Source: Microbacterium sp. BR1 (GTDB lineage Bacteria; Actinomycetota; Actinomycetes; Actinomycetales; Microbacteriaceae). Taken from it: a stretch of DNA of 64,000 nt. A program made the translations under genes and the position numbers. The stretch's first letter is position 1. Each line of letters opens with the position of its first letter. The stretch covers positions 558,001 through 622,000 of the forward strand of contig NZ_NMUN01000004.1 of assembly GCF_002812725.1 (NCBI RefSeq), written 5' to 3'. Shown piece after piece: positions 9,781 to 47,148 of the stretch. The notes under the pieces were generated by a model that saw only the letters and a list, made by a program, of their open reading frames with translations, had not been told where the DNA came from and did not search any database.

Positions 9781-9857
9781 GGTGGGTATAGCTCAGTTGG
9801 TAGAGCACCTGGTTGTGGTCCAGGGGGCCGCGGGTTCAAGTCCCGTTACTCACCCCA
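9781..9857 (+). tRNA. tRNA-His (anticodon GTG), 3' end forms attL
   Basis: The sequence gives a full cloverleaf with the extra 5' G typical of tRNA-His (G-1 at 9781 opposite C73 at 9854). The acceptor GTGGGTA pairs with TACTCAC, the anticodon loop is TTGTGGT with GTG centred, and the T arm is CGGGTTCAAGTCCCG. CCA is encoded (9855-9857). The last bases CACCCCA are shared with the right end of the integrated element, so insertion left the tRNA sequence intact. The stop codon of the recombinase on the other strand lies inside this gene. Confidence 0.95.
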
Positions 9858-28090: not shown

Positions 28091-28761
28091 GGGGTGGTCT
28101 CCTCCCGCTCGGCGGCGGTGTCGGTGGTGTCAGTGAGGTGCGCGACGGCGAACCAGCGGCCCACGGTCGAGGGATGCACCCCGAGCTCGCGGGCGATCCG
28201 CTTGTTCGACCAGCCCGCCTCTCGCAGCTCCCACCCCATCGCGCGCCGATCCGCCACACCGTCATCGCGACCGGTGGTCTCCGGCTCGCCAGCGGGCAGC
28301 TCTGGCATGGACTCGACGGTGACGGCCCCGCTTGCGGCGGCGGCAGATTCGACGTCGGTGGTGCGGGTGAGGATCACGGTCAGGTGCGTGATGGCCAGCA
28401 GAACGACGGGCGGCACTGCGGCGACCGAGGCCGCGAGCATCCTTGGCACGTCGGCGTCTGCGGCGACGACGGCGTGAATGGCATTTGCCGTGACCGAGAC
28501 GAGTGCGCCGCCGACCAGCAGCGCCCACGGGTACCAGGCCGAGCGTTGCCCGGCGAGGGCGACGACGGCGACCGTGGCGACGACGATGATGCCGTCCACG
28601 ATCAGCGGCCACGCCCACGCCTGCCCAGCCCCGATCCCGGAGCGAGCGGCCAGATCGGCCAACGACGTGAACGATAGCCAGAACGCTCCGGCGGCGATGA
28701 ACACCGTCCCCGCGGCCGCTGTCATCGCTGCCCAGCGCCGCCCGTCCGATTCTCGCCTCAC
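28087..28761 (-). CDS. DUF2637-like membrane protein with C-terminal HTH
   Basis: The 224-residue protein starts at a GTG (28759-28761) overlapping the upstream stop. Four membrane helices (AAGTVFIAAGAFWLSFTSL, LIVDGIIVVATVAVVALAG, ALLVGGALVSVTANAIHAVV, VAAVPPVVLLAITHLTVIL) follow the DUF2637 layout. Its cytoplasmic tail has a helix-turn-helix (REAGWSNKRIARELGVHPSTVGRWF, key part RELGVHPSTVGRW). Similar proteins accompany replication genes on actinobacterial plasmids and elements. It could tether DNA to the membrane; that is inference. Confidence 0.75.
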   Translation of the reverse strand: MRRESDGRRWAAMTAAAGTVFIAAGAFWLSFTSLADLAARSGIGAGQAWAWPLIVDGIIVVATVAVVALAGQRSAWYPWALLVGGALVSVTANAIHAVVAADADVPRMLAASVAAVPPVVLLAITHLTVILTRTTDVESAAAASGAVTVESMPELPAGEPETTGRDDGVADRRAMGWELREAGWSNKRIARELGVHPSTVGRWFAVAHLTDTTDTAAEREETTP

Positions 28762-29690
28762 AGCGCTGCCCTCCCGAAGGCTGCGGACGGTGGGCTCGCC
28801 GCGCGACCGAACCACCGCCCCGCGCTCCGGGTCTGGCCGCCTGACGTGGCCTCGTGCGCGGGCTGGGTGGCTCGGTAGGCCGAGCGCACGGTCGTGGTGA
28901 TCTCGCGATCGCCCAGACCCGCCGACTGCGCCGCAGCACCCAAGGCATCGAGCGCGTCGGAGAGCGAGACGCCGTTCTCGGCGAGGCGGCAGGCGGCCCA
29001 GAACAGACCCCGGTTCCGCTCGCCCTCACCCCGTCCAGCGACCCAGGCCGCCAACCGCTCAGAATCCAGATCCATCGAGCCGCTGCTCGCGCGTGGTGGA
29101 GCGACGGGGCGCGGATCGATGAAGTCCCGCAGCCGGGCCGCATCCACGGTGCCGACCGAGTGAGCGGCGATGTCGGCGACCTCGTAGCGGCGGACGTTGC
29201 CGTCGATGATTCGCCGGGAAGGCGGAGCGATGATGTAGCCGCCGTCGCCCCGGAAGTCGACGCCCGCGGTGGCTGCCTGCCACGACCGCTGCTCGCGGCC
29301 CGGGGTCGCCGGGAAGTACACGTGCGCGCCTCCGGTGGGTGTGCGCACGAGCAGACCCGCGCCATCGACGAGCCCCGCGTCGGTGGCGCGCTGGAACGCC
29401 GCGCGGCCGTCGTGGGGGCCGTGGACATCGACATCGACGACGACAACGCCGGATGGAGCGCCGGTCGGGATGCCGATGTTCGCGTTCGGTGTGCGCGACC
29501 ACCACGCGGCAACCTGTTCCGGGTCGCTGCTCGCATCGAGGAACCCACGGCGGGTCAGCGGACGCTTCCCCTCGACGACGCACGGAAACACGGGCACGCC
29601 AGCCGCCGCGAGGCTCCGCGCCGCGAGCCCCAGGCTCGGTGAACGATCCACGCGAATGAGCGCCGCCAGGACATCGAATGCTTCGGGCAT
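28758..29690 (-). CDS. bifunctional DNA primase/polymerase, N-terminal prim-pol domain
   Basis: The 310-residue protein (MPEAFDVLAALIRVD...) has the archaeo-eukaryotic prim-pol fold. The N-terminal GVPVFPCVVEGKRPLTRRGFLDAS (key KRPLT) and WWSRTPNANIGIPTG segments precede the metal motif VVVVDVDVHG (DxD), and a GGAHVYF strand and GVDFRGDGGYIIAPPS complete the site. It would prime replication of the excised element. No fused helicase domain is present. The ATG at 29688-29690 overlaps the ardC-like stop (TGATG). Confidence 0.88.
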   Translation of the reverse strand: MPEAFDVLAALIRVDRSPSLGLAARSLAAAGVPVFPCVVEGKRPLTRRGFLDASSDPEQVAAWWSRTPNANIGIPTGAPSGVVVVDVDVHGPHDGRAAFQRATDAGLVDGAGLLVRTPTGGAHVYFPATPGREQRSWQAATAGVDFRGDGGYIIAPPSRRIIDGNVRRYEVADIAAHSVGTVDAARLRDFIDPRPVAPPRASSGSMDLDSERLAAWVAGRGEGERNRGLFWAACRLAENGVSLSDALDALGAAAQSAGLGDREITTTVRSAYRATQPAHEATSGGQTRSAGRWFGRAASPPSAAFGRAAL

Positions 29691-30769
29691 CACAGCCTCC
29701 GCCCTGCCAGCGCTGGCGCCGACGCAGCACGCGGACGATCGGTCTCCACCGAGTTCGCAGCCGTACGGGAGGTGCGCGGACTGGGAGCGTCGCGTTCGAG
29801 TCCGGGCGGGGTGCCGTCGCCGACCTGGAGCGTGTCGAGCTGGTCGAGGATCGCCAGCGCGGTCTTCCGCACCCGCTCGCCGGTGGACTGCACCACCTGG
29901 ACGGGCTCTTGGCCGTCCACGCGGGCGGCCCAGGTCGAGACGTACGGGATCGTGTACCCGGTGGTGTCCATGCCGTGCGCGGCACCGATCATCAGCGCGA
30001 CGGACTCGGCTTCGACCTCGCGGATGCCGCGATGCTGACGTGCTTCCTCGTCGTCGGGATCGTGCATCAGCACGTGCGCCAGCTCGTGCGCGAGCGTCTT
30101 GACCTGCGCAGCAGGGTCCATGTTCTCCCGCACCGCTACCGTGCGCTCCTCATAGTCGGTCATGCCGTTCGCGCCGGAGATCATCCCCTCGTGTGGCACC
30201 CGCAGCACCTCGAACCCCGCGCCGCGAATCTGCCCGGCCAGCCCGTCCCACAGCCCCGAGGGTGCTTCGCCTTCCAGCAGCGTCGGAGCGGGCGGAACTG
30301 GCAATGGTTCTCCGTCGGTCTGGGAGGCATCCCACACGTAGGCCGGCCGGGCTCCGACCATCCGCGAGCGCACCACCTCGCCGGCCTTCGGCGTCTCCCT
30401 CGGCCCGAGCCGCCGCCACGAGCCCGCATCGGCAGGGGTCGCGGTGGCGAACCGGCCCGTCACGGGCGCGAAGATCATGTAGCCCGGCTGGCCCTTCATC
30501 ACCTGCCGACCGAGCCCCTGCCACTGCCGGTACCCGGCAACCAGGGTGGGGAAGGGTTCGGGCACGCGGCCTGCCTCGAACGCGGCTTCGTGCTGCACCC
30601 AGATCAGCATCGTGTTGTTGAACGACCGCGACCGGAACCGCGCCGCGAAGGCGAGCGCCTGGCGCCAGTCGTCACCCGAGACCAGCGACTCGACCGCGCC
30701 GGTCAGCTTCTCGTGCAGCTCGTCGAGCTTCGCCTCTCGCGCCGCGCGGGCGTCCTCGTTCGATGCCAT
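29690..30769 (-). CDS. ArdC-like antirestriction/ssDNA-binding zinc peptidase
   Basis: The N-terminal part (residues about 20-160: FNNTMLIWVQHEAAFEAGRV, YRQWQGLGRQVMKGQPGY) is the ArdC-type ssDNA-binding domain (DUF1738-like). The C-terminal part holds the metallopeptidase motif KTLAHELAHVLMHD and a downstream glutamate helix (REVEAESVALMIGAAHG). ArdC proteins protect incoming single-stranded DNA from restriction during conjugation. It starts at ATG 30767-30769 and heads the prim-pol block, which matches early expression after transfer. The divergent region holds the four operators of the XRE regulator. Confidence 0.85.
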   Translation of the reverse strand: MASNEDARAAREAKLDELHEKLTGAVESLVSGDDWRQALAFAARFRSRSFNNTMLIWVQHEAAFEAGRVPEPFPTLVAGYRQWQGLGRQVMKGQPGYMIFAPVTGRFATATPADAGSWRRLGPRETPKAGEVVRSRMVGARPAYVWDASQTDGEPLPVPPAPTLLEGEAPSGLWDGLAGQIRGAGFEVLRVPHEGMISGANGMTDYEERTVAVRENMDPAAQVKTLAHELAHVLMHDPDDEEARQHRGIREVEAESVALMIGAAHGMDTTGYTIPYVSTWAARVDGQEPVQVVQSTGERVRKTALAILDQLDTLQVGDGTPPGLERDAPSPRTSRTAANSVETDRPRAASAPALAGRRL

Positions 30770-30913
30770 GCTCCGGCCTCCTCTTCGGCGGGCCGCGACG
30801 CGGCTGCGCGCGGCGGTACACCTGGCAGGTAGGCGCGAACACCCGCGCCCAGACCGTGAGCTGGACATCGTTCACCTCCTTGAGGCAGCCCGAGCCGAGA
30901 CCGGGACGCAACA

Positions 30914-30927
30914 TTGAGCATGCTCAA
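30914..30927. promoter_or_regulatory. operator copy 1, TTGAGCATGCTCAA
   Basis: A perfect 14-bp palindrome, lying between the divergent ardC-like gene and the XRE regulator gene. Three near-identical copies follow at 30960, 30982 and 31005. Confidence 0.8.
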
Positions 30928-30959
30928 AATGCCCCGGAGTCCTGTTCTAACACTGACCG

Positions 30960-30973
30960 TTGAGCATGCGCAA
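30960..30973. promoter_or_regulatory. operator copy 2, TTGAGCATGCGCAA
   Basis: One mismatch from the perfect palindrome; the centre is 46 bp from copy 1. Confidence 0.8.
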
Positions 30974-30981
30974 GCCTTGAT

Positions 30982-30995
30982 TTGTGCATGCTCAA
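30982..30995. promoter_or_regulatory. operator copy 3, TTGTGCATGCTCAA
   Basis: One mismatch from the palindrome, 22 bp centre to centre from copy 2, about two helical turns. Confidence 0.8.
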
Positions 30996-31004
30996 CGAGT
31001 ACGG

Positions 31005-31018
31005 TTGAGCATGCACAA
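31005..31018. promoter_or_regulatory. operator copy 4, TTGAGCATGCACAA
   Basis: One mismatch from the palindrome, 23 bp centre to centre from copy 3. It ends 61 bp before the regulator start codon. Confidence 0.8.
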
Positions 31019-31079
31019 CCACCTTCTGGGTGGACTACATCGATGCCTTGCCCGTTGCGAAGGGAAGGGGGTCACCGTC

Positions 31080-31511
31080 ATGACCGAAGACGAGAGCCAG
31101 GCTGCGGCCGAAGACCTCGCCAAACGTCTGCGGCTCCTGATGGATGTCGCCGTCGCCGAGTCCGGCACGGAGCCGACCTACTCGCAGATCGCCGGCTACC
31201 TCCAAGAACGAGGCACCAACCTGTCGCGGTCGCGCTGGACGTACATGGTCAACGGCCACCGCTACGTCCAAGACCCCGCCGTCTTCGAAGGGCTCGCGGA
31301 GTTCTTCGACGTGGACGCCGCGTTCCTGCTCGGCGAGGACGGTGCTGCCACTCCCGAGAAGGTCTCTGCGCAGCTCGACCTGGTTCGGTCCATGCGTGCC
31401 GCGAAGGTGAAGTCCTACGCTGCCCGCACCCTCGGCGATATCTCGCCGAAAGCACTCCACGCCATCACCAAGTTCCTGGACGAGGAAATGACACACATGC
31501 CCGAGCACTGA
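31080..31511 (+). CDS. XRE-type helix-turn-helix regulator of the element
   Basis: The ATG at 31080 follows GAAGGGAAGGGGG. The 143-residue protein has an N-terminal HTH (residues about 30-90: PTYSQIAGYLQERGTNLSRSRW, key SQIAGYL and RSRWTYMVNG) of the actinobacterial XRE kind, then a helical C-terminal part (LDLVRSMRAAKVKSYAARTLGD) likely for dimerisation. It is followed by an ImmA/IrrE-type peptidase gene, the same logic as ImmR/ImmA of ICEBs1, in which the peptidase cleaves the repressor. The four upstream palindromes are its probable sites. Confidence 0.8.
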   Translation: MTEDESQAAAEDLAKRLRLLMDVAVAESGTEPTYSQIAGYLQERGTNLSRSRWTYMVNGHRYVQDPAVFEGLAEFFDVDAAFLLGEDGAATPEKVSAQLDLVRSMRAAKVKSYAARTLGDISPKALHAITKFLDEEMTHMPEH

Positions 31512-31570
31512 CCGGTACCGCACGATGGAGCCGCCACCGGTCCCTGCTCCCTACAGAGAAGGGGCGAACC

Positions 31571-32035
31571 GTGAAGATCGAACAGACCGTATCGGCGGCC
31601 GTCGCGGGCCTTGAGCTCGGCAATACCTTCGCCCTTGACGATCTCCTCCACACCGTCCAAGACCGGCGGCACCGTAGGCTCCGCGTCGTCGAACTCGCAG
31701 ACCTCGACACCCACGACGGCCTCTGCGCGCTCTGGCTCTCCACCGATGCCGAAGACGTCGTGCTTCACGCCCGCAGCGACTCCGCGCTGCATCGCCAGCA
31801 GTTCGTGCTCCACGAGCTCGCCCACATGATCCTTGGCCACGGCGAAGGCGACGGCTGTGCAGTCGGGGAGGTACTGCTGCCCAACATCCCGCCGTACACC
31901 AGAGGTCGCCTGCTCAGGCGGCAAGACCTCGACAGCGAAACCGAGATCGCCGCCGAGTCCCTCGCCGACCGGCTCGCCGCCGGCATCCGAGGGTCGGTGT
32001 TCGCAGAGTCCAGATACTCGGAGATATTCGGATGA
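31571..32035 (+). CDS. ImmA/IrrE-type metallopeptidase
   Basis: The GTG at 31571 follows AGAAGGGG. The 154-residue product has the zinc motif QFVLHELAHMILGH (HExxH type) at residues about 76-90 and the downstream glutamate region SETEIAAESLADRLAAG. COG2856 peptidases cleave the cognate XRE repressor to switch on element genes. It is separated from the XRE gene by 59 bp and coupled to the membrane-protein gene by a 4-bp overlap (ATGA). Confidence 0.85.
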   Translation: MKIEQTVSAAVAGLELGNTFALDDLLHTVQDRRHRRLRVVELADLDTHDGLCALWLSTDAEDVVLHARSDSALHRQQFVLHELAHMILGHGEGDGCAVGEVLLPNIPPYTRGRLLRRQDLDSETEIAAESLADRLAAGIRGSVFAESRYSEIFG

Positions 32036-33042
32036 TCCAGACGCTCGTCGCAACGCTCATGTGGGCGCTCGTGGCGAGCCTGCTCATCTTCCGACGCAAA
32101 CGCACCGACCGAAGCATCACCTACGCCGCCCTCACCATCGCCATCGCGATGACGCTCAACGTGGATGCCGCCTACAGCGCCGTCGATCGACTGCTCGGTG
32201 GCACCAACCTCGCCACCCTGATCGCGGACGCGCTCCTGATGACCGGGCTGTTCTTCCTCGGCCGCGGCGTCATGAAGACCGGCGAGTACCGGCCCAGGCT
32301 CGTCCGAGCCGCCGTCAGCATCCCCGTCCTGCTCGTCGCGCTGCTCGCGATCACCGCATCGTTCCTGCTCATCGACCGCGGCACCACTACCACACGATTT
32401 ATGATCGACCTCGGCGCACAGCCAGCGGCGGCGGTCTACTCGATCATCAACTTCACCTACTGCCTCGTCATTGTCGTGGCGATGCTCGTCCTCGCCATAA
32501 GGCAGTACCGGCACAACACCGGCATCCAGCACCTCCCCGCGGCACTGTTGAGCCTGGGGTCGGCGTTCGGCGTCGCGCTCTGCCTCGCCGTGATCGTCAT
32601 GGACGTTGCCCACGCCACGGGCCACCTCGACCTCATGCACACTATCCAGTCCGCCTACGATCCGCTCTCCGTCCTGACCTTCGTGTTCCTCTGTGCCGGG
32701 TTCGCGATCCAGCCTGCCGTCCGTCGCGCTCAGCACCGCGCCCGGCAGAGGCAGACCGTCGCCCTCACAGCGCAGCTGGAGTCGCTTTGGCACCAGGCGA
32801 CGCGCGCACGGCCCGGGCTGAGCCAGGCCGACCCCCTCGCCGCCAGTAGCGAAGACCCCGAAGGGCACCTCCACCGAGTGATCGTCGAAATCCGCGACGC
32901 GATGATCGACCCTCGCATCACCTTCGACATCAGCACCGACGACCGCGACCTGCTCGAACGCGCCGAGAGCCACCTCGTCGGAAGCGACAGTGCCCTCGCG
33001 ACGACCTCGCCCGTTCCCTACGTCGAGGAGCGGGAGTCGTGA
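32032..33042 (+). CDS. polytopic membrane protein (MAB_1171c-like)
   Basis: The 336-residue protein has about seven membrane helices in the first 230 residues (MIQTLVATLMWALVASLLIF, ALTIAIAMTLNVD, AAVSIPVLLVALLAITASFLL, VYSIINFTYCLVIVVAMLVLAI and others). The cytoplasmic C-terminus of about 100 residues is charged, with LTAQLESLWHQATRARPG. That layout fits the MAB_1171c family of actinobacterial proteins called putative transporters, which sit beside XRE/ImmA genes. It may sense or move a signal; no substrate is known. It overlaps its neighbours on both sides. Confidence 0.7.
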   Translation: MIQTLVATLMWALVASLLIFRRKRTDRSITYAALTIAIAMTLNVDAAYSAVDRLLGGTNLATLIADALLMTGLFFLGRGVMKTGEYRPRLVRAAVSIPVLLVALLAITASFLLIDRGTTTTRFMIDLGAQPAAAVYSIINFTYCLVIVVAMLVLAIRQYRHNTGIQHLPAALLSLGSAFGVALCLAVIVMDVAHATGHLDLMHTIQSAYDPLSVLTFVFLCAGFAIQPAVRRAQHRARQRQTVALTAQLESLWHQATRARPGLSQADPLAASSEDPEGHLHRVIVEIRDAMIDPRITFDISTDDRDLLERAESHLVGSDSALATTSPVPYVEERES

Positions 33043-34175
33043 TAGGCCGCATCGCTCTCGGCGCTGGGGCCGCGGCGGCAGCGGTTGCCGGGGTCGGGTG
33101 GGCCATCGCGCGGCGGCTCACCGCACCCGTCGGCCCACGAATGTTCGACCTCACCGTTCGAGGCGTCGAGTACACCGACGACGGCGACCTGATCGTGCTC
33201 GACCGCACCGACCAGGCCGCCGCGCCAGGCATCTACAATCTCTGGTTCGAGCACGGCGGCTGGGCGCAGCTCGCCACAGATACCGTCGATCGAGGACCCA
33301 CCCGCGTCGCTCGCAGGATCACGGGCACCACATCGGGTTTCACTCCGAAGACCGGCGATTGCGCCTCCTGGAGCGGCATCTACTACGCCACCCCAGCCGA
33401 CGCCGGACTCCACACACGCGACATCACCATCACGACCCCCGCAGGACCATGCCCGGCCTGGCGCATCGACGGCGACCTCGCGACCTGGGCCATCCACATC
33501 CACGGCCTCGGCAGCACCCGCGCCGGCACCCTCCGCGGCGTCCTCGCCGCAACCGAACTCGGCTACACCTCCCTCGTCGTCAGCTACCGCAACACAGCAG
33601 AAGGGCCGCGAGTTGGCACCGGCCGGACGACCTTCGGCTACGCAGAGACGAGCGACGTTGACGAGGCCATCGGGTACGCCGTCCGACGAGGAGCCGAACA
33701 GGTCGTGATCTTCGGCTGGTCGATGGGTGCCGCTGTCGCTCTCCAGCTCGCCGACCACCCGCGACATCCGGGACTGATCGCCGCGCTCGTACTCGACTCC
33801 CCAGTCCTCAACTGGACCGAAGTCATCAAGTCCAACTGCGCCCGCAGCGGATGGCCTGCAGCAGCCGGGCACCTCGCGATCCCGTGGCTCACCCTCGACC
33901 CACTGGCACGCACAGTCGGCCTGCCAGGACGCATCCCACTTCCCACCTTCGACTGGACATCCCGAGCCGTAGAGCTCAACACGCCGACCCTGATCCTCCA
34001 CGGCACCCGAGACGACTCCGTGCCGATCCGGCTCTCACAAGCACTCCGAGACGCTCGCCCGGACCTCGTTGAGCTTGAGACCTTCGATGCCGGCCACACC
34101 CTCTGCTGGAACAGCGATCTGGACCGCTGGCGGAACACGGTGACCGCCTGGCTCAAGGTGCGCATCCCACGCTGA
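33039..34175 (+). CDS. alpha/beta hydrolase with N-terminal membrane segment
   Basis: The 378-residue protein starts at a GTG overlapping the upstream stop (GTGA). A membrane-spanning or signal segment (IALGAGAAAAAVAGVGWAIA) is followed by a beta-rich region and a hydrolase domain. The nucleophile elbow is GWSMGAA (Ser around residue 229), the acid lies in LHGTRDDSVP and the histidine in FDAGHTLCWN. The substrate is not predictable; a lactone or peptide signal is possible given the regulator/peptidase/membrane-protein operon. It ends the control operon. Confidence 0.8.
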   Translation: MIGRIALGAGAAAAAVAGVGWAIARRLTAPVGPRMFDLTVRGVEYTDDGDLIVLDRTDQAAAPGIYNLWFEHGGWAQLATDTVDRGPTRVARRITGTTSGFTPKTGDCASWSGIYYATPADAGLHTRDITITTPAGPCPAWRIDGDLATWAIHIHGLGSTRAGTLRGVLAATELGYTSLVVSYRNTAEGPRVGTGRTTFGYAETSDVDEAIGYAVRRGAEQVVIFGWSMGAAVALQLADHPRHPGLIAALVLDSPVLNWTEVIKSNCARSGWPAAAGHLAIPWLTLDPLARTVGLPGRIPLPTFDWTSRAVELNTPTLILHGTRDDSVPIRLSQALRDARPDLVELETFDAGHTLCWNSDLDRWRNTVTAWLKVRIPR

Positions 34176-34310: not shown

Positions 34311-34571
34311 GTGGCTGAGCCGTGGCTGTCCGCAGACGACATCGCCGCCCACCTCGGGGTCACCAAGGACACCGTCTACACCTGGATCGCCGAGAAGGCC
34401 ATGCCCGCCCACAAGGTCGGACGCCTCTGGAAGTTCCAAGCCAGCGAGATAGACGACTGGGTGCGCGCGGGTGCGGCGGCCAGTGACCAAGAGCTCCACG
34501 TAGCCCATCCCGGTGTCGGTGGACGCTCCTACGCTCATGACAACGACGAGCACGGGGAGGGGGGAAGATGA
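34311..34571 (+). CDS. excisionase-family HTH DNA-binding protein
   Basis: The GTG at 34311 follows GGGAGG. The 86-residue protein has a MerR-like winged HTH of the excisionase type: WLSADDIAAHLGVTKDTVYTWI, key LGVTKDTVYTW, and the wing KVGRLWKFQASEIDDWV. It is coupled to a DNA methylase gene by a 4-bp overlap. Here it more likely regulates or recruits the restriction-modification operon than acts as Xis, because excision by serine integrases uses a different type of factor. Confidence 0.8.
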   Translation: MAEPWLSADDIAAHLGVTKDTVYTWIAEKAMPAHKVGRLWKFQASEIDDWVRAGAAASDQELHVAHPGVGGRSYAHDNDEHGEGGR

Positions 34572-35212
34572 ACCTGAAAGACGCCCAGCGCTTGGTGAAG
34601 TCCAAGCAACGCGTTGCGGACCACGGCGAGGTGTTCACGCCGGCGTGGATGGTCGAGGACATGCTCGACCTCGTTAAGCACGAGTCTGAGCGGATCGACT
34701 CCCGCGTACTCGAACCCGCCTGCGGCTCGGGCAACTTCCTCATCCCCGTCCTGGCTCGCAAGCTCGCCACGGTCGAGCTTCGGCACGGCAAGAGCGAGTT
34801 CGAGAAGCGCCACTACGCATTGTTCGCGCTCATGTGCACCTACGGTATCGAACTTCTCGCAGACAACGCCGAAGAGTGCCGCCACAATCTCGCCGAGGTG
34901 TTCAACACATTCTTGGGTATCGGCAACGATGACCAGTGGGCGCGAGCGGCCCGCGCGGTTCTCGCCGTGAACATCGTCCAGGGCGATGCCTTGACCATGA
35001 CCGTGCCAAGCGGCCAGCCGATCACCTTTCCTGAGTGGGGCTACCTCGGCAAAGGCAAGTTCCAGAGGCGCGACTTTCGCTACGACGACCTCACTCAGCG
35101 CGCCTCGTACGAGGGAACCCTATTCGGCGAGCTCGATGACGAGGACCTGTTCGTCCCCGCGCAGACTTACCCGACGATGACCGTCAGTCAGATCGCCGAG
35201 GCCGCCGCGTGA
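34568..35212 (+). CDS. N6-adenine DNA methylase, small subunit-like
   Basis: The 214-residue protein contains the AdoMet-binding motif [20 protein letters not shown] and the upstream motif X-like region [15 protein letters not shown] recognisable NPPY catalytic motif is absent, and the end ([15 protein letters not shown]) suggests a domain split from the following gene. It probably works as part of a two-piece methylase with the next product. Coupling at both ends (ATGA with the HTH gene, GTGA with the next) supports co-assembly. Confidence 0.75.
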
Positions 35213-36884
35213 CCCTTGCACCTTTCACCATCCGAGGGCACAACCCGGATGTGTTGACGTGCATCGCGAACCTCTCCAACGATGAGGTCTTCACCCCGCC
35301 GGAGTTCGCGAACCAGATGCTCGACACGCTTGCCGCCGCGTGGGCAGACGCCAACGACGGCGCCGACATCTGGACCAACCCCGATGTCACGTTCCTCGAT
35401 CCTTTCACCAAGTCGGGGGTCTTCCTTCGCGAGATCACTCGCCGCCTCACCGACGGACTGATCCTGACGTTCCCTGACCTCGCCCAGCGCGTCGATCACA
35501 TCCTCACCCGTCAGGTTTTCGGCATCGGGATCACACAGCTCACTGCACTGCTGGCTCGCCGGAGTGTCTATTGCTCGAAGTTCGCCAACGGCCCGCACTC
35601 GATCGCCAGGTCGTTCACGACCGAGGACGGCAACATCTGGTTCGATCGCACGGACCACGCCTGGGGCGGTGGCAAACGCGAGTTTCGGGTTGATCCGCTT
35701 ACGCGCGAAGAGATCGCCGTCTATACCAACCGCAAGTGCACCTACTGCGGTGCTAGCGAAGGCAGCTACGCACGCGGTGACGACTTGGAAACTCACGCCT
35801 ACGCATTCATCCATACCGACGACATCAGAGCTCGGATCGCCGAGCTGTTCGGAGACAACATGCAGTTCGACGTCATCATCGGCAACCCGCCCTATCAGTT
35901 GGGGATGGAGGCGGTGGTGGCGGCGCGTCGGCCACGCCCATCTACAATCTCTTCGTCGAGAAGGCACTCGCGCTCGACCCTCGCTATGCCGTGATGATCA
36001 CCCCGTCGCGATGGTTCTCGGGCGGGAAGGGTCTGGACGATTTCCGGGATCGGATGCTCGCCGACCACCGCTTTGCGAAACTCATCGACTATCCGCAGCT
36101 GTACGACGTCTTTCCTGGCGTGAAGATTCGAGGCGGCGTGTCGTACTGGTTGTGGAGTCGAGACCATGAGGGACCGTGCGAGGTCACCACCAAGATCGGA
36201 GACGAGGCTATCGGCGTACCCGCACTTCGGATGCTTGACGCCTATGACGTGCTCGTGCGTCGCAACGAGGGCGTGCGGATTCTGGACAAGGTGAGGGCGC
36301 ACAGAGTTGACGGAGAGTCGGAGCCTCTCCTCGGCGATGTGGTGTCTGCCAGGAAGCCATTTGGGCTGACGAACCAAAGGGGCAAGGCGACTCCGGTCGG
36401 GTTGAATGATCCAGTCCTGGTGTATGGAAACCAGACTGAGTCGTACATGGAGCGATCTGCGATTACGAGCAACGTCGAATGGGTCGACAAGTGGAAGGTC
36501 TTATTGGTCAAGGCCCACGGAACGAGTGGCCGCGATGACGTTACGATTCTGGGCGAACCGGTCGTGGCCGGCCCAGGTACCGCGTGTACCGAGACCTACC
36601 TCGTGATCGGGGTTGTGGACTCCGAAACAGAGGCTCGGAATCTGGCCATCTACATGCGGACGCGCTTCGTTCGATTCCTCGTCTCGCTTCGCAAGATCAC
36701 CCAGAACATCACTCGCGACTCCTACCTGTTTGTCCCAAGGCTCTCGATGGATCGAGTCTGGACTGATCGTGACCTCTATGAGCGCTACGACATCGATAGT
36801 GAGCAGGTTTCATTCATAGAGTCGTTGATCGCCGAGCGTCCGAGCAACGACGTGCCTGGTTCCGATGAGGACGGCGATGAGTAG
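35209..36884 (+). pseudogene. Eco57I-type adenine methylase, frameshifted after NPPY
   Basis: The GTG at 35209 overlaps the previous stop. The N-terminal part has [15 protein letters not shown] and a motif I variant [15 protein letters not shown]; the catalytic motif is [12 protein letters not shown] near 35888. Immediately after it the frame shifts: GGGG where five G are needed gives an out-of-frame tail in the first frame. The proper continuation ([36 protein letters not shown]-type strands, target-recognition region) runs in another frame to 36884. At 1676 bp the gene is one base short of whole codons. Confidence 0.82.
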
Positions 36885-39447
36885 AGACATCGATCAGCTT
36901 CTCCCGGAGAAGCCCGAGGCACGACTGCGTATCTATGCGTGGTCGCCGAACGATCCACCAGTCGGCTACGCGGGCCTTCTCAAGGTGGGACAGACGACGA
37001 AGGCGGATGTGAACGCGCGCATCCGCGAGTCTCAGGGGCAGATGCAACAGGCATACACGCTGCACGTTGATGAGCTCGCCGAACGAGGCGACGGGACGGT
37101 GTTTCGCGACTCAGATGTGCGCCAACGGCTGATCGACAAGGGCTTCGAGAACCCGATCTTCGGCTCAGCGCGAGAGTGGATGCGGTGCACCCCAGACGAT
37201 GTGCGCACGGCGATCACTGAGCTTCGCACAGGCGTGAAGCTCAGTGGAACCCATCATGAGAAGTTTCCGATGCGCCCGGAGCAAGCCAGCGCCGTGGACA
37301 AGGCCGAGGGCTACTACGAGTCCATCTGGGCCGAGGACTCTCACGCGGTGCCACGGTTCCTGTGGAACGCCAAGATGCGCTTCGGGAAGACCTTCGCCTC
37401 CTACCAACTCGCGAAGCGGCTCGGCGCCAAACGCATCCTCGTGGTCACCTTCAAGCCCGCAGTGGAGGACGCCTGGCAGACCGACCTGGAGTCTCACGCC
37501 GACTTCGACGGCTGGCAGTACCTCTCCTCGGCCGCCGGGGGCAACCCAGATGAGGCGGACAAGACTCGGCCACTGGTCTACTTCGGTTCGTTCCAGGACC
37601 TACTCGGGCGAGATCGGAAGACCGGCCTCATCAAGGCGAAGAACGAGTGGGTCCACACCACCAACTGGGACCTCGTCATCTTCGATGAATACCACTTCGG
37701 TGCGTGGCGAGAGTCCGCCAAGGAGCTGTTCGAGGGCGAGGACGAGAAAGTCAAGCAGAAGGAACTGGCCGCGGAGTACAACGACGGCCTCGTGGCTTTC
37801 GACGAGGAGCTTGACGAACTCGGCAACGACGAGGACGACTTCCTGCCGATCACCACCCGCGCCTACCTGTACCTGTCGGGCACGCCATTCAAGGCGCTGG
37901 CAACCGGTGAGTTTATCGAGGAGCAAATCTTCAACTGGACCTACACCGATGAGCAGCGCGCCAAGGCCGAGTACGCCGTCGCGCAACCGGACGCCTGGAA
38001 CCCGTACGGGGCACTCCCGGAGATGCGTCTGTTCACGTACCAGATGCCTGACGAGTTGATTGCCGTTGCGAATCAGGGAGAGTTCGACGAGTTCGACCTC
38101 AACGAGTTCTTCGAGGCAAAGGGCGCCGGCAAGGACGCCGAGTTCACCCGCAAGACCGACGTGCAGAAGTGGCTCGATCTCGTCCGCGGCGCTCACCTGC
38201 CCACCCAGGTCGACGCGATGCGAATGGGCACCCGCCCGCCATTCCCGTACTCCGATGTCCGACTCCTGCCGTACCTTCAGCACTCGTTCTGGTTCCTGCC
38301 CAACGTTGCTGCCTGCGAGGCAATGTCGAACCTGCTCGCGGAGAAGCAGAACGTGTTCTGGCACGACTACAAGGTCCTCGTCGTCGCGGGTCCCGGCGCG
38401 GGCATCGGGCTGGATGCTCTCCCGCCAGTGCGGGCGGCGATCGGCGACGGCCACGACACGAAGACGATCACCCTGTCGTGCGGCAAGCTCACCACGGGCG
38501 TCACCGTCAAGCAGTGGTCCTCGATCCTGATGTTGCGCAACCTCAACTCACCCGAGACCTACTTCCAGGCAGCCTTCCGTGTGCAGTCACCGTGGTCGAT
38601 CAAGAACCCCGACGGCGACAACCCAAGCGCCGAAGCCGTCCTCAAGCCGGTGTGCTTCGTGTTCGACTTCGCGCCGACCCGCGCGCTGCGTCAGATCGCC
38701 GACTACGGCGCGGGCCTCTCACCGGAGACGCCGAACCCCGAGCAAGCCGTAGAGGAACTCGTGAAGTTCCTGCCCGTGTTGGCCTACGACGGGTCGAACA
38801 TGACCCAGGTCGATGCCGGCGGCATCCTCGATATCGCCATGTCGGGCACCTCCGCGACCCTCCTGGCCCGCAAGTGGGAGTCCGCGATCCTCGTCAACGT
38901 CGACAACGAAACCCTGCGCAAGATCATGAACAGCCCCGACGCCCTCAACGCCGTCATGAACATCGAGGGTTTCCGTGCACTCGGCAACGACATCTTCGAG
39001 ACCGTCGTGAACAAGAGTGACGCCGTGAAGAAGGTGAAGAAGGAGAAGGGCGAGGACATCACTCCGGCGGAGAAGAAGGAGCTGACGGCGGAGGAGAAGG
39101 AGTACAAGTCCAAGCGGAAGCAGATTCAGGAGAAGCTGGTCAAGTTCGCCACCCGCATCCCTGCATTCATGTACCTGACCGACTTCCGTGAGAACACTCT
39201 TACCGACGTCATCACCAAGCTCGAACCCGGCCTGTTCCGCACCGTCACCGGACTGACCGTCGAGGACTTCCACCTCCTCGTGAATCTCGGCGTCTTTAAC
39301 GCCACCCATATGAACCAGGCCGTCTTCGCCTTCCGCCGCTACGAGGACTCCTCCTTGTCCTACACCGGCATCGAGTCCCACAAGGGCCTGCGTCGCTACG
39401 GCCTCTACGACACCGTCGTCGCCGTCAACGACGAGACCGTAGTCTGA
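36877..39447 (+). CDS. GIY-YIG-like nuclease fused to DEAD/DEAH helicase, restriction-type
   Basis: The 856-residue product starts at ATG 36877, GAGG six bases ahead. Residues about 20-110 resemble the T5orf172/GIY-YIG nuclease fold (GYAGLLKVGQTTKADVNARI). Next come helicase motifs: RFLWNAKMRFGKTFASYQLA (Walker A-like, key MRFGKT), WDLVIFDEYHFG (DExH), and YLSGTPFKAL (motif III), with a second RecA domain (TLSCGKLTTGVTVKQW, motif VI-like FQAAFRVQSPW). A Lys/Glu-rich region lies near residue 720. It looks like the restriction subunit of the preceding methylases. Confidence 0.82.
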   Translation: MSRDIDQLLPEKPEARLRIYAWSPNDPPVGYAGLLKVGQTTKADVNARIRESQGQMQQAYTLHVDELAERGDGTVFRDSDVRQRLIDKGFENPIFGSAREWMRCTPDDVRTAITELRTGVKLSGTHHEKFPMRPEQASAVDKAEGYYESIWAEDSHAVPRFLWNAKMRFGKTFASYQLAKRLGAKRILVVTFKPAVEDAWQTDLESHADFDGWQYLSSAAGGNPDEADKTRPLVYFGSFQDLLGRDRKTGLIKAKNEWVHTTNWDLVIFDEYHFGAWRESAKELFEGEDEKVKQKELAAEYNDGLVAFDEELDELGNDEDDFLPITTRAYLYLSGTPFKALATGEFIEEQIFNWTYTDEQRAKAEYAVAQPDAWNPYGALPEMRLFTYQMPDELIAVANQGEFDEFDLNEFFEAKGAGKDAEFTRKTDVQKWLDLVRGAHLPTQVDAMRMGTRPPFPYSDVRLLPYLQHSFWFLPNVAACEAMSNLLAEKQNVFWHDYKVLVVAGPGAGIGLDALPPVRAAIGDGHDTKTITLSCGKLTTGVTVKQWSSILMLRNLNSPETYFQAAFRVQSPWSIKNPDGDNPSAEAVLKPVCFVFDFAPTRALRQIADYGAGLSPETPNPEQAVEELVKFLPVLAYDGSNMTQVDAGGILDIAMSGTSATLLARKWESAILVNVDNETLRKIMNSPDALNAVMNIEGFRALGNDIFETVVNKSDAVKKVKKEKGEDITPAEKKELTAEEKEYKSKRKQIQEKLVKFATRIPAFMYLTDFRENTLTDVITKLEPGLFRTVTGLTVEDFHLLVNLGVFNATHMNQAVFAFRRYEDSSLSYTGIESHKGLRRYGLYDTVVAVNDETVV

Positions 39448-39736: not shown

Positions 39737-40126
39737 TCAGAGGTACCGGCAGATCGACTCGGGTGTGCAGGCCTCCGGCGACGTCTGTGCTGCGTTCGCG
39801 CGGAGCTCGGCGACGCTGGTACGGAGCAGGCGGAGATGCTCAAGCTGCTCGTCGATCTCGACCAGTCGCCGGTCGAGGAGGTCTCGAACATGACCGCACG
39901 GCGACCCGCCCGCGTCACGTACTTCGAGGATCTCGGCGGTTTGCGCGAGGGTGACCCCTGCTGCGCGGGCCCGGTCGATGAACTCGAGCCGCTGCACCGC
40001 CTCGTCGCCGTAGTTGCGGTACCCGGCCGGGGTACGCTCCGGAGGTTGGAGCAGCCCGCGCTCCTCGTAATACCGCAGCGTGGACGCCCTCGTCTTCGCC
40101 TTCCCCGCGAGTTCTCCGATCCGCAT
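39737..40126 (-). CDS. merR: MerR-family metal-responsive regulator
   Basis: The start is the ATG at 40124-40126 (MRIGELAGKAKTRASTLRYYEERGL) after GGAGGTGACG. The 129-residue protein has the MerR HTH, the coiled-coil dimerisation helix (RRLVEIDEQLEHLRLLRTSV) and cysteines at GSPCGH and EACTPESICRYL, which is compatible with Hg(II) binding. It is divergent from merA with a MerR-type promoter between. Selectivity for mercury is inferred from the neighbour. Confidence 0.85.
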   Translation of the reverse strand: MRIGELAGKAKTRASTLRYYEERGLLQPPERTPAGYRNYGDEAVQRLEFIDRARAAGVTLAQTAEILEVRDAGGSPCGHVRDLLDRRLVEIDEQLEHLRLLRTSVAELRANAAQTSPEACTPESICRYL

Positions 40127-40145
40127 CGTCACCTCCGCCACCGAC

Positions 40146-40176
40146 TTGACCTTCAAGCATACTTTAAGGTCCATTC
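40146..40176 (+). promoter_or_regulatory. MerR-type promoter/operator of merA
   Basis: A near-perfect inverted repeat, GACCTTCAAG (40148) and CTTTAAGGTC (ending 40171), lies between a -35-like TTGACC (40146-40151) and a -10-like CCATTC (40171-40176). The spacer of 19 bp is longer than normal, as is usual for promoters twisted open by MerR. Confidence 0.7.
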
Positions 40177-40224
40177 TTTCAGGAGTGGCCGCATGAGTGG
40201 CCGGTTCGAACTTGAGGAGGCATC

Positions 40225-41601
40225 GTGACACAGCACACAGAGGTTGATCTCGTGGTGATCGGGACGGGCGGGGCGGCGATGTCCGCAGCGATCCACGCGC
40301 GCCTCGAGGGGGCCAGCGTGGTCGCCATCGAATCGGGAACCCTCGGCGGTACCTGCGTGAACGTGGGTTGTGTGCCGTCCAAGACGCTTCTCGCGGCCGC
40401 GCACACCCGGCACTCCGCCCTCACGAACCCGTTCTCAGGCGCCCCCAGCTCTGCTGGGATGGTCGATCTCAGCGCGCTCATCGAGCAGAAGGATGATCTG
40501 GTTGGGATGCTCCGCCAGACCAAGTACGCCGACATCGCCGCTGCCTACGGGTTTGACATCCTCCCGGGCACTGCAACGTTCACAGACGCGGGAACCCTGC
40601 TCGTGGATGGACGACCGGTGCGCGCGAAGTCGTATCTCGTCGCCACCGGCGCCGAGCCGCACGTGCCGGCAATCCCTGGGCTTGAGCAGGTTGATTACCT
40701 CACGTCGACCACAGCGATGGAACTGACGGAACTGCCCGCGTCGCTCGTGGTGATCGGCGGTGGCTTCGTCGGCCTGGAACAGGCGCAGCTGTTCGCCCGG
40801 CTCGGAGTAGAGGTCACCGTCATCGGTCGGCTCGCCCCGCACGCCGAACCGGAACTGTCATCCGAGCTCCGCAAGGCCTTCCTGGCCGAGGGGATCAGCG
40901 TCATCGGCGACCGCGCAGCCACGATCACCCAGCACGAGGGCCTGGTCCAGGTGACGACCCGCAACGGGAAGGACGCGACCGGTGAACGTGTCCTCGTTGC
41001 CACCGGTCGCACCCCGCGCACCGAAGGGCTCAACCTTCCTGCTGCGGGTATCGCGACCGACGAGCGCGGCTTCGTCATCGTAGACGAGCAGCAGCGGACC
41101 ACGAACCCGGCTGTGTTCGCCGCCGGTGACGTCACTGACGTGCCCCAGTACGTGTACGTCGCCGCGAGGACTGGGAAGATCGCCGCGCACAACGCCCTGG
41201 GTCACGACGAGCGAGTCGACTACACCGGGTTGCCGTCTGTGCTGTTCACCTCACCCCAACTGGCCTCCGCCGGGATCACCGAAGCCAGCGCCATCGCCGC
41301 CGGATACCGGTGCGCCTGCCGATTCCTACGACTTTCCGACGTGCCCAGGGCCATCGCCAACCACGACACACGCGGCGGCATCAAGGTCGTCGCCGACGCC
41401 GACACCGGCAAAGTCCTCGGTATCCACGCCCTCGCCGACACCGCTGGGGAGATGATGCTCGCCGCAACCTACGCCATCACCGCCGGATTCACCGTCACCC
41501 AACTCGCCGACACCTGGGCCCCCTACCTCACCATGGCCGAAGGCATCCGCCTCACCGCGAACCTCTTCCGCAACGAACTCCCCACCTCCTGCTGCGCCTG
41601 A
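40225..41601 (+). CDS. merA: mercuric reductase
   Basis: A 458-residue FAD-disulfide oxidoreductase. The FAD site is VVIGTGGAAMSAAIHA, the redox disulfide GGTCVNVGCVPSKTLL, the NAD(P)H site VVIGGGFVGLEQAQLFARLG, and the protein ends LPTSCCA with the C-terminal vicinal cysteines diagnostic of MerA. It reduces Hg(II) to volatile Hg(0) in the cytoplasm with NADPH. It lacks the N-terminal heavy-metal-associated domain of longer MerA forms. GTG start at 40225 follows GGAGG. No merT, merP or merB gene is visible, so uptake must be by other routes. Confidence 0.92.
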   Translation: MTQHTEVDLVVIGTGGAAMSAAIHARLEGASVVAIESGTLGGTCVNVGCVPSKTLLAAAHTRHSALTNPFSGAPSSAGMVDLSALIEQKDDLVGMLRQTKYADIAAAYGFDILPGTATFTDAGTLLVDGRPVRAKSYLVATGAEPHVPAIPGLEQVDYLTSTTAMELTELPASLVVIGGGFVGLEQAQLFARLGVEVTVIGRLAPHAEPELSSELRKAFLAEGISVIGDRAATITQHEGLVQVTTRNGKDATGERVLVATGRTPRTEGLNLPAAGIATDERGFVIVDEQQRTTNPAVFAAGDVTDVPQYVYVAARTGKIAAHNALGHDERVDYTGLPSVLFTSPQLASAGITEASAIAAGYRCACRFLRLSDVPRAIANHDTRGGIKVVADADTGKVLGIHALADTAGEMMLAATYAITAGFTVTQLADTWAPYLTMAEGIRLTANLFRNELPTSCCA

Positions 41602-41823
41602 CACAAGAGCCGGGCCCAGCGATGTGGTGATCCAAGTGATATCCGCGACGCCTTCAACACCGGCACCGACCGCGTGATCGACGCCTACGCGGTCAGCGTG
41701 GGCTCAGTTGAGGCAGCGGCGCCGAGCACGTCGTCTGGGCCGCTCACACGCGGAGCGCACCGGGACACTCAGCCGCCAGGTAGCAACCACAGCACGCTGC
41801 CATCTACGCAGTCGGCTACGAGT
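41602..41823. other. gene-free gap between merA and cadD
   Basis: 222 bp with no convincing gene. A plus-strand frame reads DIRDAFNTGTDRVIDAYAV, which might be a relic of a longer gene, but I cannot name it. Confidence 0.4.
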
Positions 41824-42426
41824 TCAGAGGCCGAAGGCACCACCACTGACGAGGATGAAGATGCCCAGGCCGATGAGCACGATCGGGAACAGGATGTGTT
41901 CCCAGCGTTCCAGGAGTTCGGCGATCGGTCGGCGGGTGGCGACGAACTTGCCCAGGCCGACGAGGGCGGCGACCAGGGCGAGGAACACGATGCAGTACGC
42001 CACCACGGCCGCTGGGCCCACGCTGAGGAAGACCGGGACGTAGACGCCGATGTTGTCCCCGCCGTTGGCGAAGGTCACCCCGGCCACCGTCCACACCCCA
42101 ACCTTCTTGCCCTCGACCTTTGCCTCATCGTCATCGTCGGCACCGCGGTTGCGCCAGGCTTGCCACGCAGCCCAAAGTCCCAACCCCAGCGGAATGAGTC
42201 CGAAGTAGGGGATGACCTCCGGCGGCAGGAACGCTCCCGCCCCGAGCGTCACCAGCACGGAAGCGCCCAGGATGCCAGCGAACCCGAGGTACTGTCCGAC
42301 CAGGATTCGGGCGGTGGTCCCGCGCCGGCCCGCGCCTCGGGCGAAGAACAAGGAGAGCACGATGATGTCATCGATGTTCGTGGCGATGAATAGGCCGATC
42401 GCCTGCAGGACGGAGGACAGGATCAT
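41824..42426 (-). CDS. cadD: CadD-family cadmium resistance transporter
   Basis: The 200-residue membrane protein has five or six helices (VLQAIGLFIATNIDDIIVLSLFF at the N-terminus, LPPEVIPYFGLIPLGLGLWAAW, FANGGDNIGVYVPVFLSVG). The paired NIDD and GGDNIGVY motifs are typical of CadD, in which the acidic residues line the metal path. It should export or sequester Cd(II). A charged cytoplasmic loop (GADDDDEAKVEGKK) is notable. It lies downstream of lspA and the P-type ATPase in the same direction. Confidence 0.85.
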   Translation of the reverse strand: MILSSVLQAIGLFIATNIDDIIVLSLFFARGAGRRGTTARILVGQYLGFAGILGASVLVTLGAGAFLPPEVIPYFGLIPLGLGLWAAWQAWRNRGADDDDEAKVEGKKVGVWTVAGVTFANGGDNIGVYVPVFLSVGPAAVVAYCIVFLALVAALVGLGKFVATRRPIAELLERWEHILFPIVLIGLGIFILVSGGAFGL

Positions 42427-42502
42427 GCGCCCACCGCCGCGTTACAGCCGCCTGGCGGCCCAGCGGTTCCGGCAGCCGCGTGCCGTTGATACTCTGCGAC
42501 CA

Positions 42503-43078
42503 TCATTGTCCGTTCCTGGTGTGGTTTGGGCCTCGGAGGTAAAGCAGTACGCCCAGGGCGACGCCGAAACCGAGGATGACGTCGGCAAGGTTGCCGATGA
42601 ACAGGTTGCCGTAGGCGAGGAAGTCGGTGACATGACCGCGGCCGAATCCGGGAGGGGCGAACAGCCGGTCCAGGAGGTTGCCGACTGCGCCGCCCCACAC
42701 CAGGCCGATCGCGACCGCCCACCCGGCCGATGGAGCGCGCGCGGCGGCGATGAGCAGGGCGATGGACGCCGCGGTCGCGATGACGGTGAGCAGCCACGTT
42801 GAATCGGACCCTAAGGACATGACGGTGCCGGGGTTGAACGCGAGCTGTAAGCCGAGCCAGTCTCCCAAGAGCGGGATTGCGGTCATCCTCGCTGAGCTGA
42901 GCTGAGCGAGGGCGAGTGCCTTGCTGCCTTGGTCGATCAGCACCGCGCCGGCGGCGACGGCGCACGCGAGCAGGAACCAGCGGAGCCGGACGCGCGCCGC
43001 CGCCGGGCCGGCAGAACTCGCTTCCACGGCATCCGCTTTTCCCGGGGAGGGAGCGGAGCCGTCAAGGGGATCGGTCAT
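42503..43078 (-). CDS. lspA: lipoprotein signal peptidase (metal-island LspA)
   Basis: The 191-residue membrane protein has four helices and the aspartic protease motifs of signal peptidase II: FNPGTVMSL (motif with Asn), GGAVGNLLDRLF and GNLADVILGFG with the catalytic Asp pair. It removes signal peptides from prolipoproteins. LspA paralogues often accompany heavy-metal P-type ATPases on resistance islands, where the reason is unknown. It overlaps the ATPase gene by 4 bp. Its N-terminus has a polar stretch of about 30 residues. Confidence 0.88.
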   Translation of the reverse strand: MTDPLDGSAPSPGKADAVEASSAGPAAARVRLRWFLLACAVAAGAVLIDQGSKALALAQLSSARMTAIPLLGDWLGLQLAFNPGTVMSLGSDSTWLLTVIATAASIALLIAAARAPSAGWAVAIGLVWGGAVGNLLDRLFAPPGFGRGHVTDFLAYGNLFIGNLADVILGFGVALGVLLYLRGPNHTRNGQ

Positions 43079-44979: not shown

Positions 44980-45335
44980 GCCCGCACCTCCCCCGCCTGG
45001 CAACCCTCGACCCCGCAGTCCGGGTCCATGCACGGCACGCTCTCGTCGACCGCAAGCGTGACATCCACCAGCGCCGTCAGCGCGCGGGCCAGGTGCGGGT
45101 CTGCCACCTCGTAGCGGGTCTGTCGGCCCTCGGGCTCGGCCACCACGATCCCGCACCCGCGCAGGCATGTCAGATGGTTCGACACGTTCGAGCGCGACAA
45201 CCCCAGCTCGCGGGACAGCACCGCCGGGTAGCTCGGCCCGGCCAGCAGGGTCAGCAGAATGCGGGAGCGGGTCGGGTCGGCCATAGCTCGGCCGAGCCGG
45301 TTCATCACGTCGAGTCGATCGGAAATAGTCAGCAT
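44976..45335 (-). CDS. ArsR/SmtB-family regulator, CmtR-like
   Basis: A 119-residue winged-helix repressor (MLTISDRLDVMNRLGRAMADPTRSRILL, recognition helix LGLSRSNVSNHLTCLRGCG). Cysteines at LTCLRGCG and the C-terminal CMDPDCGVEGC resemble the Cd/Pb-sensing arrangement of Mycobacterium CmtR (Cys57, Cys61, Cys102). The EGRQTRYEVADPHLARAL stretch is also CmtR-like. It should release DNA when Cd or Pb binds, switching on pump, lspA and cadD. The ATG at 45333-45335 lies inside its probable operator. Confidence 0.88.
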   Translation of the reverse strand: MLTISDRLDVMNRLGRAMADPTRSRILLTLLAGPSYPAVLSRELGLSRSNVSNHLTCLRGCGIVVAEPEGRQTRYEVADPHLARALTALVDVTLAVDESVPCMDPDCGVEGCQAGEVRA

Positions 45336-46881: not shown

Positions 46882-47148
46882 AAAGTCTGCTCCGGTGAAG
46901 GTCGTCCCCGGCATCCGTGCCTCGTTGAGCACTGATGCCGAGCTGGCCAACTGTCAGGTGCACAACTCCGGCACGCCCGCAGCTCGTCGAGCCACGCGAG
47001 CGACACCGCCCGACGCCCCCATCTCCGGCCTTCGCTCTGACCGCCATCCGAGGTCACACGCGTCTTGCAGATCGAGGTAGCCGGGCATTACCGCGGCAGA
47101 GGTCACCGGGTGAGGGTGCTCACCTGCCCGGCAGGAGCGGAGGTGAGC
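46882..47148. other. divergent region before the relaxase, candidate oriT
   Basis: The 267 bp between the divergent methyltransferase and relaxase contain no gene. Close to the relaxase there is a stem-loop GGTGAG-GGTG-CTCACC (47110-47125) nested with CCTGC-CCG-GCAGG (47123-47135). MobF relaxase genes often lie next to their nicking site, so this gap is the best place for oriT, but no known nic sequence was recognised. Confidence 0.4.
47116..47128 (+). promoter_or_regulatory. GTGCTCACCTGCC leader box before the relaxase
   Basis: A one-base variant of the GTGCGCACCTGCC box seen before the minus-strand transfer blocks, here on the plus strand 21 bp before the relaxase start. CCTGC pairs with the next GCAGG, close to the GGAGGTG ribosome-binding site. 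Confidence 0.5.

Follow-up and report, generated by a model that had tools for sequence, protein, structure and literature searches.

A proposed membrane-coupled repressor/protease switch in a putative integrative conjugative element of Microbacterium sp. BR1

In Deinococcus, the XRE repressor DdrO is inactivated by a separate metalloprotease, IrrE; to our knowledge, that system is a chromosomal radiation response without a seven-transmembrane (7TM) partner. A similar pair controls the conjugative element ICEBs1, in which the protease ImmA cleaves the XRE-type repressor ImmR and a further element-borne protein, RapI, raises ImmA activity (PMC6540685). EspR of Mycobacterium tuberculosis is a nucleoid-associated protein that regulates its own promoter and occupies hundreds of sites with the motif TTTGC[TC][GA] (PMC3315491). 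Here we analyze a four-gene control block in a 64,000-nucleotide stretch of Microbacterium sp. BR1 (hereafter the window), which holds a putative integrative conjugative element (ICE). The block encodes an EspR-like XRE regulator, an ImmA-like metalloprotease, a 7TM protein and an alpha/beta hydrolase. We propose that these genes form a membrane-coupled repressor/protease switch, in which XRE repression, ImmA-mediated removal of the repressor and gating by the 7TM protein act together; in outline, we give this scheme a slightly better than even chance of being correct.

The block was found at the coordinates given in the initial annotation, and its genes are the XRE regulator (143 amino acids) at 31080..31511, the ImmA/M78-like metalloprotease (154 amino acids) at 31571..32035, the 7TM protein at 32032..33042 and the hydrolase at 33039..34175, all on the + strand, with the last three overlapping by 4 bp. 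The Pfam match of the XRE protein, to HTH_31, scored 16.3 bits, under the gathering cut-off of 27, so its naming also rests on a weak phmmer match to EspR (3r1f, E = 0.0039, residues 8-121), which covers the helix-turn-helix (HTH) and the C-terminal part. Likewise, the Peptidase_M78 match of the protease (PF06114, E = 0.0092) reached 16.2 bits, under the gathering cut-off of 22, and its naming therefore also rests on the HELAH motif, with HExxH present in 59/59 aligned rows; among PDB sequences it had no match up to E = 1.

XRE followed in order by ImmA, 7TM and hydrolase genes was observed in 70 of the 71 related loci reaching at least 3.2 kb, the exception being L047 (related loci are given as L numbers). 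After length limits and duplicate removal, 67 XRE, 59 ImmA, 59 7TM and 61 hydrolase rows were kept for profiles and alignments. The median ratio of nonsynonymous to synonymous substitution (dN/dS) against the window was 0.10 for XRE (68 pairs), 0.20 for ImmA (69), 0.29 for 7TM (64) and 0.28 for the hydrolase (63). Judged by their sequences, the 7TM and hydrolase genes are under purifying selection.

Between ardC and the regulator there are indeed four 14-bp palindromes, three of them at 22-23 bp, as had been noted from the bare sequence; the spacings are 46, 22 and 23 bp, and all four are CATG-centred. Operator 1 (30914..30927) is the exact palindrome TTGAGCATGCTCAA, while operators 2 (30960..30973), 3 (30982..30995) and 4 (31005..31018) each have one mismatch to it. 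These sites lie over two opposed predicted promoters: a rightward one, TTGATT-17-TACGGT (30977..31005, + strand), which reads into the regulator operon, and a leftward one, TTGCGC with the extended -10 TGTTAGAAC (30944..30973, - strand), which reads into ardC and the transfer genes. Operator 1 is downstream of the predicted leftward start, operator 2 contains the leftward -35, operator 3 lies between the rightward -35 and -10, and operator 4 extends across the predicted rightward start; the leftward -10 takes up the larger interval that separates operators 1 and 2. A protein occupying the four sites could shut both directions.

Chance palindromes were ruled out by shuffling and Markov simulation. 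At up to three mismatches to TTGAGCATGCTCAA, the window has five places, the four operators and 38533, and 100 shuffles gave a mean of 1.18 and a maximum of 4, none reaching 5. At up to one mismatch, the four operators are alone in the window, and 30 first-order Markov simulations yielded none. In the whole genome, sites at 0-1 mismatch fall only in the window block and in its second copy (C4:356139-356243), four in each; at two mismatches there are seven more places, compared with 10 for the reversed control pattern. A genome-wide regulon is thus unsupported at 0-1 mismatch, and in this the palindromes differ from the sites of EspR, being confined to the two copies of the module; the comparison applies to such close matches, as sequence is no guide to a looser motif.

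The arrangement is conserved among the 79 related loci for which 200 bp of upstream sequence could be compared. Within two mismatches, at least three sites are present in 76/79 loci (those below three being L047, L060 and L085), four sites in 62/79, and an exact copy in 72/79, with spacings clustering at 22-23 and 43-47 bp. From 81 upstream stretches, 72 of them distinct, 44 representatives make up the alignment. The rightward promoter pattern is conserved in 71/79 loci and the leftward pattern in 67/79, against 0.13% and 0.05% of shuffled stretches, respectively; given that the patterns were composed after viewing the alignment, these counts describe conservation. In L065 (5828-5929), the operator array uses other places, with spacings of 22, 22 and 44, and one site stands at the usual leftward -10 position.

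A link between regulator and operators is residue 54 of the XRE protein, which lies within the recognition helix SRSRWTYM, at what we take to be a usual base-contacting position in other repressors. This residue is Thr in 66 of 67 aligned XREs, and Met only in L060 (T54M). L060 is also the sole locus with ACATGT cores, both in the operator scan and in the alignment of 44 representatives: ACATGT replaces GCATGC fully in three of its four operators and on one side in the fourth. Among 20 plasmid homologues with less than 60% identity, a good CATG palindrome lies close to the operon in eight, and in every one of these it is ACATGT; residue 54 in these proteins is F (L165, L166), Q (L167), H (L171, L173, L182) or S (L170, L172). 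L171 and L182 retain the 46-bp operator spacing, and L170 and L172 deviate at the outer bases. An extra GC-core palindrome of L173, with one mismatch, at 1576 and away from the XRE gene, was left uncounted, and a Fisher test on the residue-54 table was discarded, the sequences being related and the first row of the table having been filled in by hand. Near-identical XREs (96-100%) were found in genera of several actinobacterial families.

Hence, XRE/ImmA-type control at these operators, as suggested by the initial annotation, is supported both by the placement of the sites over two opposed promoters and by the co-variation of protein and DNA. Binding of the XRE protein to the four CATG palindromes is well supported by the sequences compared, and we regard it as very probable. 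The co-variation also offers a sharp prediction, which sets one XRE residue against one operator base pair.

The block shares with ImmR/ImmA-type systems an HTH repressor gene beside an M78 HExxH gene, and several operators in a divergent intergenic region. By analogy with ICEBs1, the ImmA-type protease likely removes the XRE protein, probably by cleavage. The switch resembles ImmR/ImmA in its sequence features, and departs from it in having a membrane partner, an enzyme and a repressor of the EspR-like kind. In ICEBs1 the further components are RapI, which is cytosolic and binds peptides, and the peptide PhrI; in the present block, ImmA is adjoined by a 7TM protein and an enzyme.

The pairing of ImmA and 7TM genes extends well beyond the related loci. 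From 56 matches to the 7TM family outside the BR1 genome, 40 class-wide actinomycete stretches were taken, and in 36 of them an HExxH ImmA-like gene is directly upstream of the 7TM gene on the same strand; an EspR-like XRE gene is within the stretch in 29/40. The iterated ImmA and XRE profiles used for these counts were trained on matches from the same stretches. On plasmids (20 of 72 records examined), XRE, ImmA and 7TM genes occur together, with ImmA just before 7TM, in 19/20 loci, while the positions of the XRE and enzyme genes vary; the exception, L167, has XRE alone. As the 7TM gene is so rarely found without ImmA, the 7TM protein is likely a gate of the protease, as RapI is for ICEBs1 ImmA. 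From this pairing, together with the topology and fold described below, we propose with modest confidence, a little above even, that ImmA is gated by the 7TM protein acting as its receptor-like partner.

These counts also qualify an earlier claim, in which the membrane protein and the hydrolase were two further coupled genes foreign to the ICEBs1 scheme. Their coupling is borne out by gene order, overlaps and selection; the 7TM gene, being the usual neighbour of ImmA elsewhere, is not peculiar to the element of the window. The possibility that the 7TM and hydrolase genes are hitch-hiking cargo is disfavoured by the ImmA-7TM pairing and the kept block order, set against downstream restriction-modification genes whose presence varies among related loci.

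No description of an ImmA-7TM pair came up in searches of the openly licensed PMC literature. On plasmid pACHL01 (L171:4494-7548), the pair occurs twice in tandem, followed by one MpaB-type gene. In L157 (3444-5638), an ImmA-7TM pair is convergent to a gene whose product is a near-identical match to M. tuberculosis EspR (E = 2e-69). Judging from this neighbourhood, EspR itself may once have had ImmA-7TM partners.

The 7TM protein belongs to the MAB_1171c family, with a cytosolic DUF6545 part: it scores 103.9 bits on NF042915, above the curated cut-off of 100, whereas the 7TM protein of the second copy, at 90.7, does not pass. Within the class, 33 of the 197 genomes sampled, BR1 among them, have a match to the family. 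We found no established function for it; in the openly licensed PMC literature there was no mention of DUF6545, and a single paper mentions MAB_1171c. Against HisKA_7TM (PF16927) the protein obtained 16.4 bits and did not reach the gathering score of 28.6. Its structure model, built from 38 sequences (predicted local distance difference test, pLDDT, 81.7; predicted template modelling score, pTM, 0.74), has seven main helices, the last of which extends far into the cytosol, and the loop charges indicate an N-out, C-in topology. The invariant residues D45, D52, N59, D66 and H194 are at the predicted outer side, and Asp289 of the cytosolic EIRD motif is retained in 37/38 class-wide rows.

When the model was compared with known folds, the first 50 Foldseek rows contained 49 G protein-coupled receptors (GPCRs) and one designed protein, and VIA gave a Z score of 14.1 against Ste2 (208 residues, 3.7 Å), with GPCRs in all of the 50 rows listed. 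No transporter is named in the first 50 rows of either search, which counts for nothing as proof. Predicted topology and fold are somewhat more in keeping with a receptor than with an exporter, and we term the protein receptor-like rather than a GPCR. Detracting from this are the match scores themselves, as no Foldseek match reaches E 0.001 (the best is 0.038) and the tool cautions that a Z score under about 13 may reflect a generic helical bundle.

The hydrolase (Abhydrolase_1, E = 2.5e-11) has a predicted N-terminal membrane helix and a triad, S228, D325 and H353, that is invariant in 37/37 rows. Its model (pLDDT 90.1) is closest in fold to the Pf2001 esterase, followed by M. tuberculosis monoglyceride lipase and acylaminoacyl peptidase. 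A phylogeny of 53 hydrolases, which took 18 of the 37 alignment rows, places these 18 ICE hydrolases in one clade (100/100) and 27 chromosomal hydrolases in a separate clade (100/99), while the seven plasmid-module hydrolases are spread over three lineages. A further row labelled chromosomal, L188, groups with a plasmid lineage, and its hydrolase gene is adjoined by ImmA and 7TM genes.

A rival explanation would be an ordinary XRE/ImmA switch with an intracellular cue, with the 7TM protein serving as a transporter or tethering ImmA to the membrane, and the hydrolase gene sharing the operon as a fitness gene. XRE and ImmA alone do constitute known switches (PMC6540685), the NCBI label of the 7TM family is putative transporter, and a MAB_1171c knockout in M. 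abscessus had less biofilm mass, read by its authors as an effect on transport (PMC8707978); hydrolase relatives also occur in 29/40 genomes of the taxonomic family. Yet the block is retained in nearly all related loci, ImmA adjoins 7TM in nine tenths of the class-wide ones, and in the tree the chromosomal hydrolases are set off from the module hydrolases as a clade of their own. We regard this rival explanation as rather unlikely.

The fourth gene of the block is, from its neighbourhoods, exchangeable, with the hydrolase being one of several enzymes in that place. Ten of 16 neighbour proteins were scanned. MPAB_Lcp was matched in L165, L171, L173 and L182, and L166 carries this name by annotation only, its Pfam scan giving no match; PAP2 was above the cut-off in L178 and below it in L126-L128, L170, L180 and L181. 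Other enzymes in this place are an amidohydrolase (L121, L123), an amidase (L124) and a flavin adenine dinucleotide (FAD)-type enzyme (L144, L168, L131), and the neighbours in L133 and L155 are unrelated. The presence of PAP2-like and MpaB proteins and of a hydrolase with a monoglyceride lipase-like fold and a predicted membrane helix would also suit a 7TM protein that senses membrane state or a cell-envelope lipid instead of a released signal, with fourth-place enzymes acting on membrane lipids. The invariant outer-side residues of the 7TM protein would equally suit a pocket for a released ligand, which is not decisive, and we consider the membrane-lipid explanation improbable.

In the switch that we infer, the XRE protein on the four operators would repress its own operon and the leftward ardC and transfer genes, as the positions of the sites suggest, and the ImmA-type protease would remove it when allowed. 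A ligand at the outer face would alter the cytosolic DUF6545 part of the 7TM protein, thereby gating ImmA. The hydrolase, like the MpaB, PAP2-like, amidohydrolase and FAD enzymes found there elsewhere, would make, alter or remove this ligand, perhaps a small lipid-like molecule; this role for the fourth-place enzyme is tentative, and falls somewhat short of an even chance. The carrier could thus judge its surroundings before transfer. The response to population or DNA damage that the initial annotation envisaged finds no support in these sequences.

Several observations weigh against parts of this switch. L057 has one ACATGC half-site although its residue 54 is Thr, and 12/20 plasmid XREs (L168, L169, L174-L181, L183, L184) have no convincing CATG palindrome, with none or only weak or distant ones. 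ImmA is missing directly upstream of the 7TM gene in 4/40 class-wide loci (L119, L139, L141, L144), and 11/40 have no EspR-like XRE in the stretch. The charges flanking the membrane helix of the hydrolase, +1.5 before and +3.3 after, give a hint that its catalytic part is in the cytosol, a placement less suited to handling a signal from outside. No signal gene was found, and in L183 the genes have no enzyme between them. The NCBI label of the 7TM family belongs here as well.

If true, this scheme would extend the repressor/protease switch that governs many mobile elements by a membrane receptor and an enzyme that handles the signal, and would provide a role for an uncharacterised membrane family. 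It would also link EspR, a well-studied regulator, to a family often adjoining a protease and a 7TM protein. Many mobile elements carry this four-gene box, which may represent a hitherto undescribed means of timing movement by an outside signal. A broader extension, which we consider possible but doubtful, is an actinobacterial signalling family in which an N-out GPCR-like receptor directly governs an ImmA destroying an EspR-type repressor, and an exchangeable enzyme makes or clears a lipid-like pheromone. Elements would thereby tell carriers from non-carriers, and chromosomal ImmA-7TM pairs, in one case beside espR, would relay other outside signals.

The putative ICE is recognized by matches in the window to Resolvase/Recombinase, TrwC and a TraG-type protein, i.e., a recombinase, a relaxase and a coupling protein. 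The large serine recombinase gene (9782-11529) ends within tRNA-His, and the TrwC relaxase is at 47065-50760. When element ends were searched for, the tRNA-His end sequence occurred once exactly, no convincing direct repeat was obtained and the right end was not found. The gene run is mostly on the - strand, with products including Prim-Pol, ParB-like and TraG-type proteins. Its leftward part starts with ardC (29690..30868, - strand; ArdcN E = 2.4e-7, Peptidase_M78 E = 2.8e-8), followed by the Prim-Pol gene (28758..29693, - strand; PF09250 E = 3.7e-35), and the control block sits between the divergent ardC and restriction-modification cargo.

The second copy of the block (C4:356139-359409, L005) lies some 230 kb from the first in the BR1 genome and has collinear surroundings. 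Positions 30900-34154 align to it in a single piece at 77% identity, and the window ArdC has no match there. The two XREs are 87% identical and share their recognition helix, and the four operator sequences do not differ between the copies; mutual control of the two elements may follow. A phage origin was rejected: the phage collection contained no 7TM relative, and XRE, ImmA and 7TM were all without a PHROGs match. The PHROGs match for the hydrolase is phrog_789 (esterase/lipase).

Downstream of the block, 34311-39447 holds an HTH gene (MADS1-like, scoring 74.4 bits where the cut-off is 80) and methylase/helicase cargo, in which an Eco57I-type domain is split across two overlapping frames (35209-36884). 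Metal-resistance cargo follows at 39737-45168, comprising a MerR-family regulator, MerA (above cut-off), a CadD-like protein, a lipoprotein signal peptidase-like gene and a heavy-metal P-type ATPase. Further on, at 51767-55603, are two genes resembling QatA and QatC of the Qat anti-phage system, each scoring under its curated cut-off.

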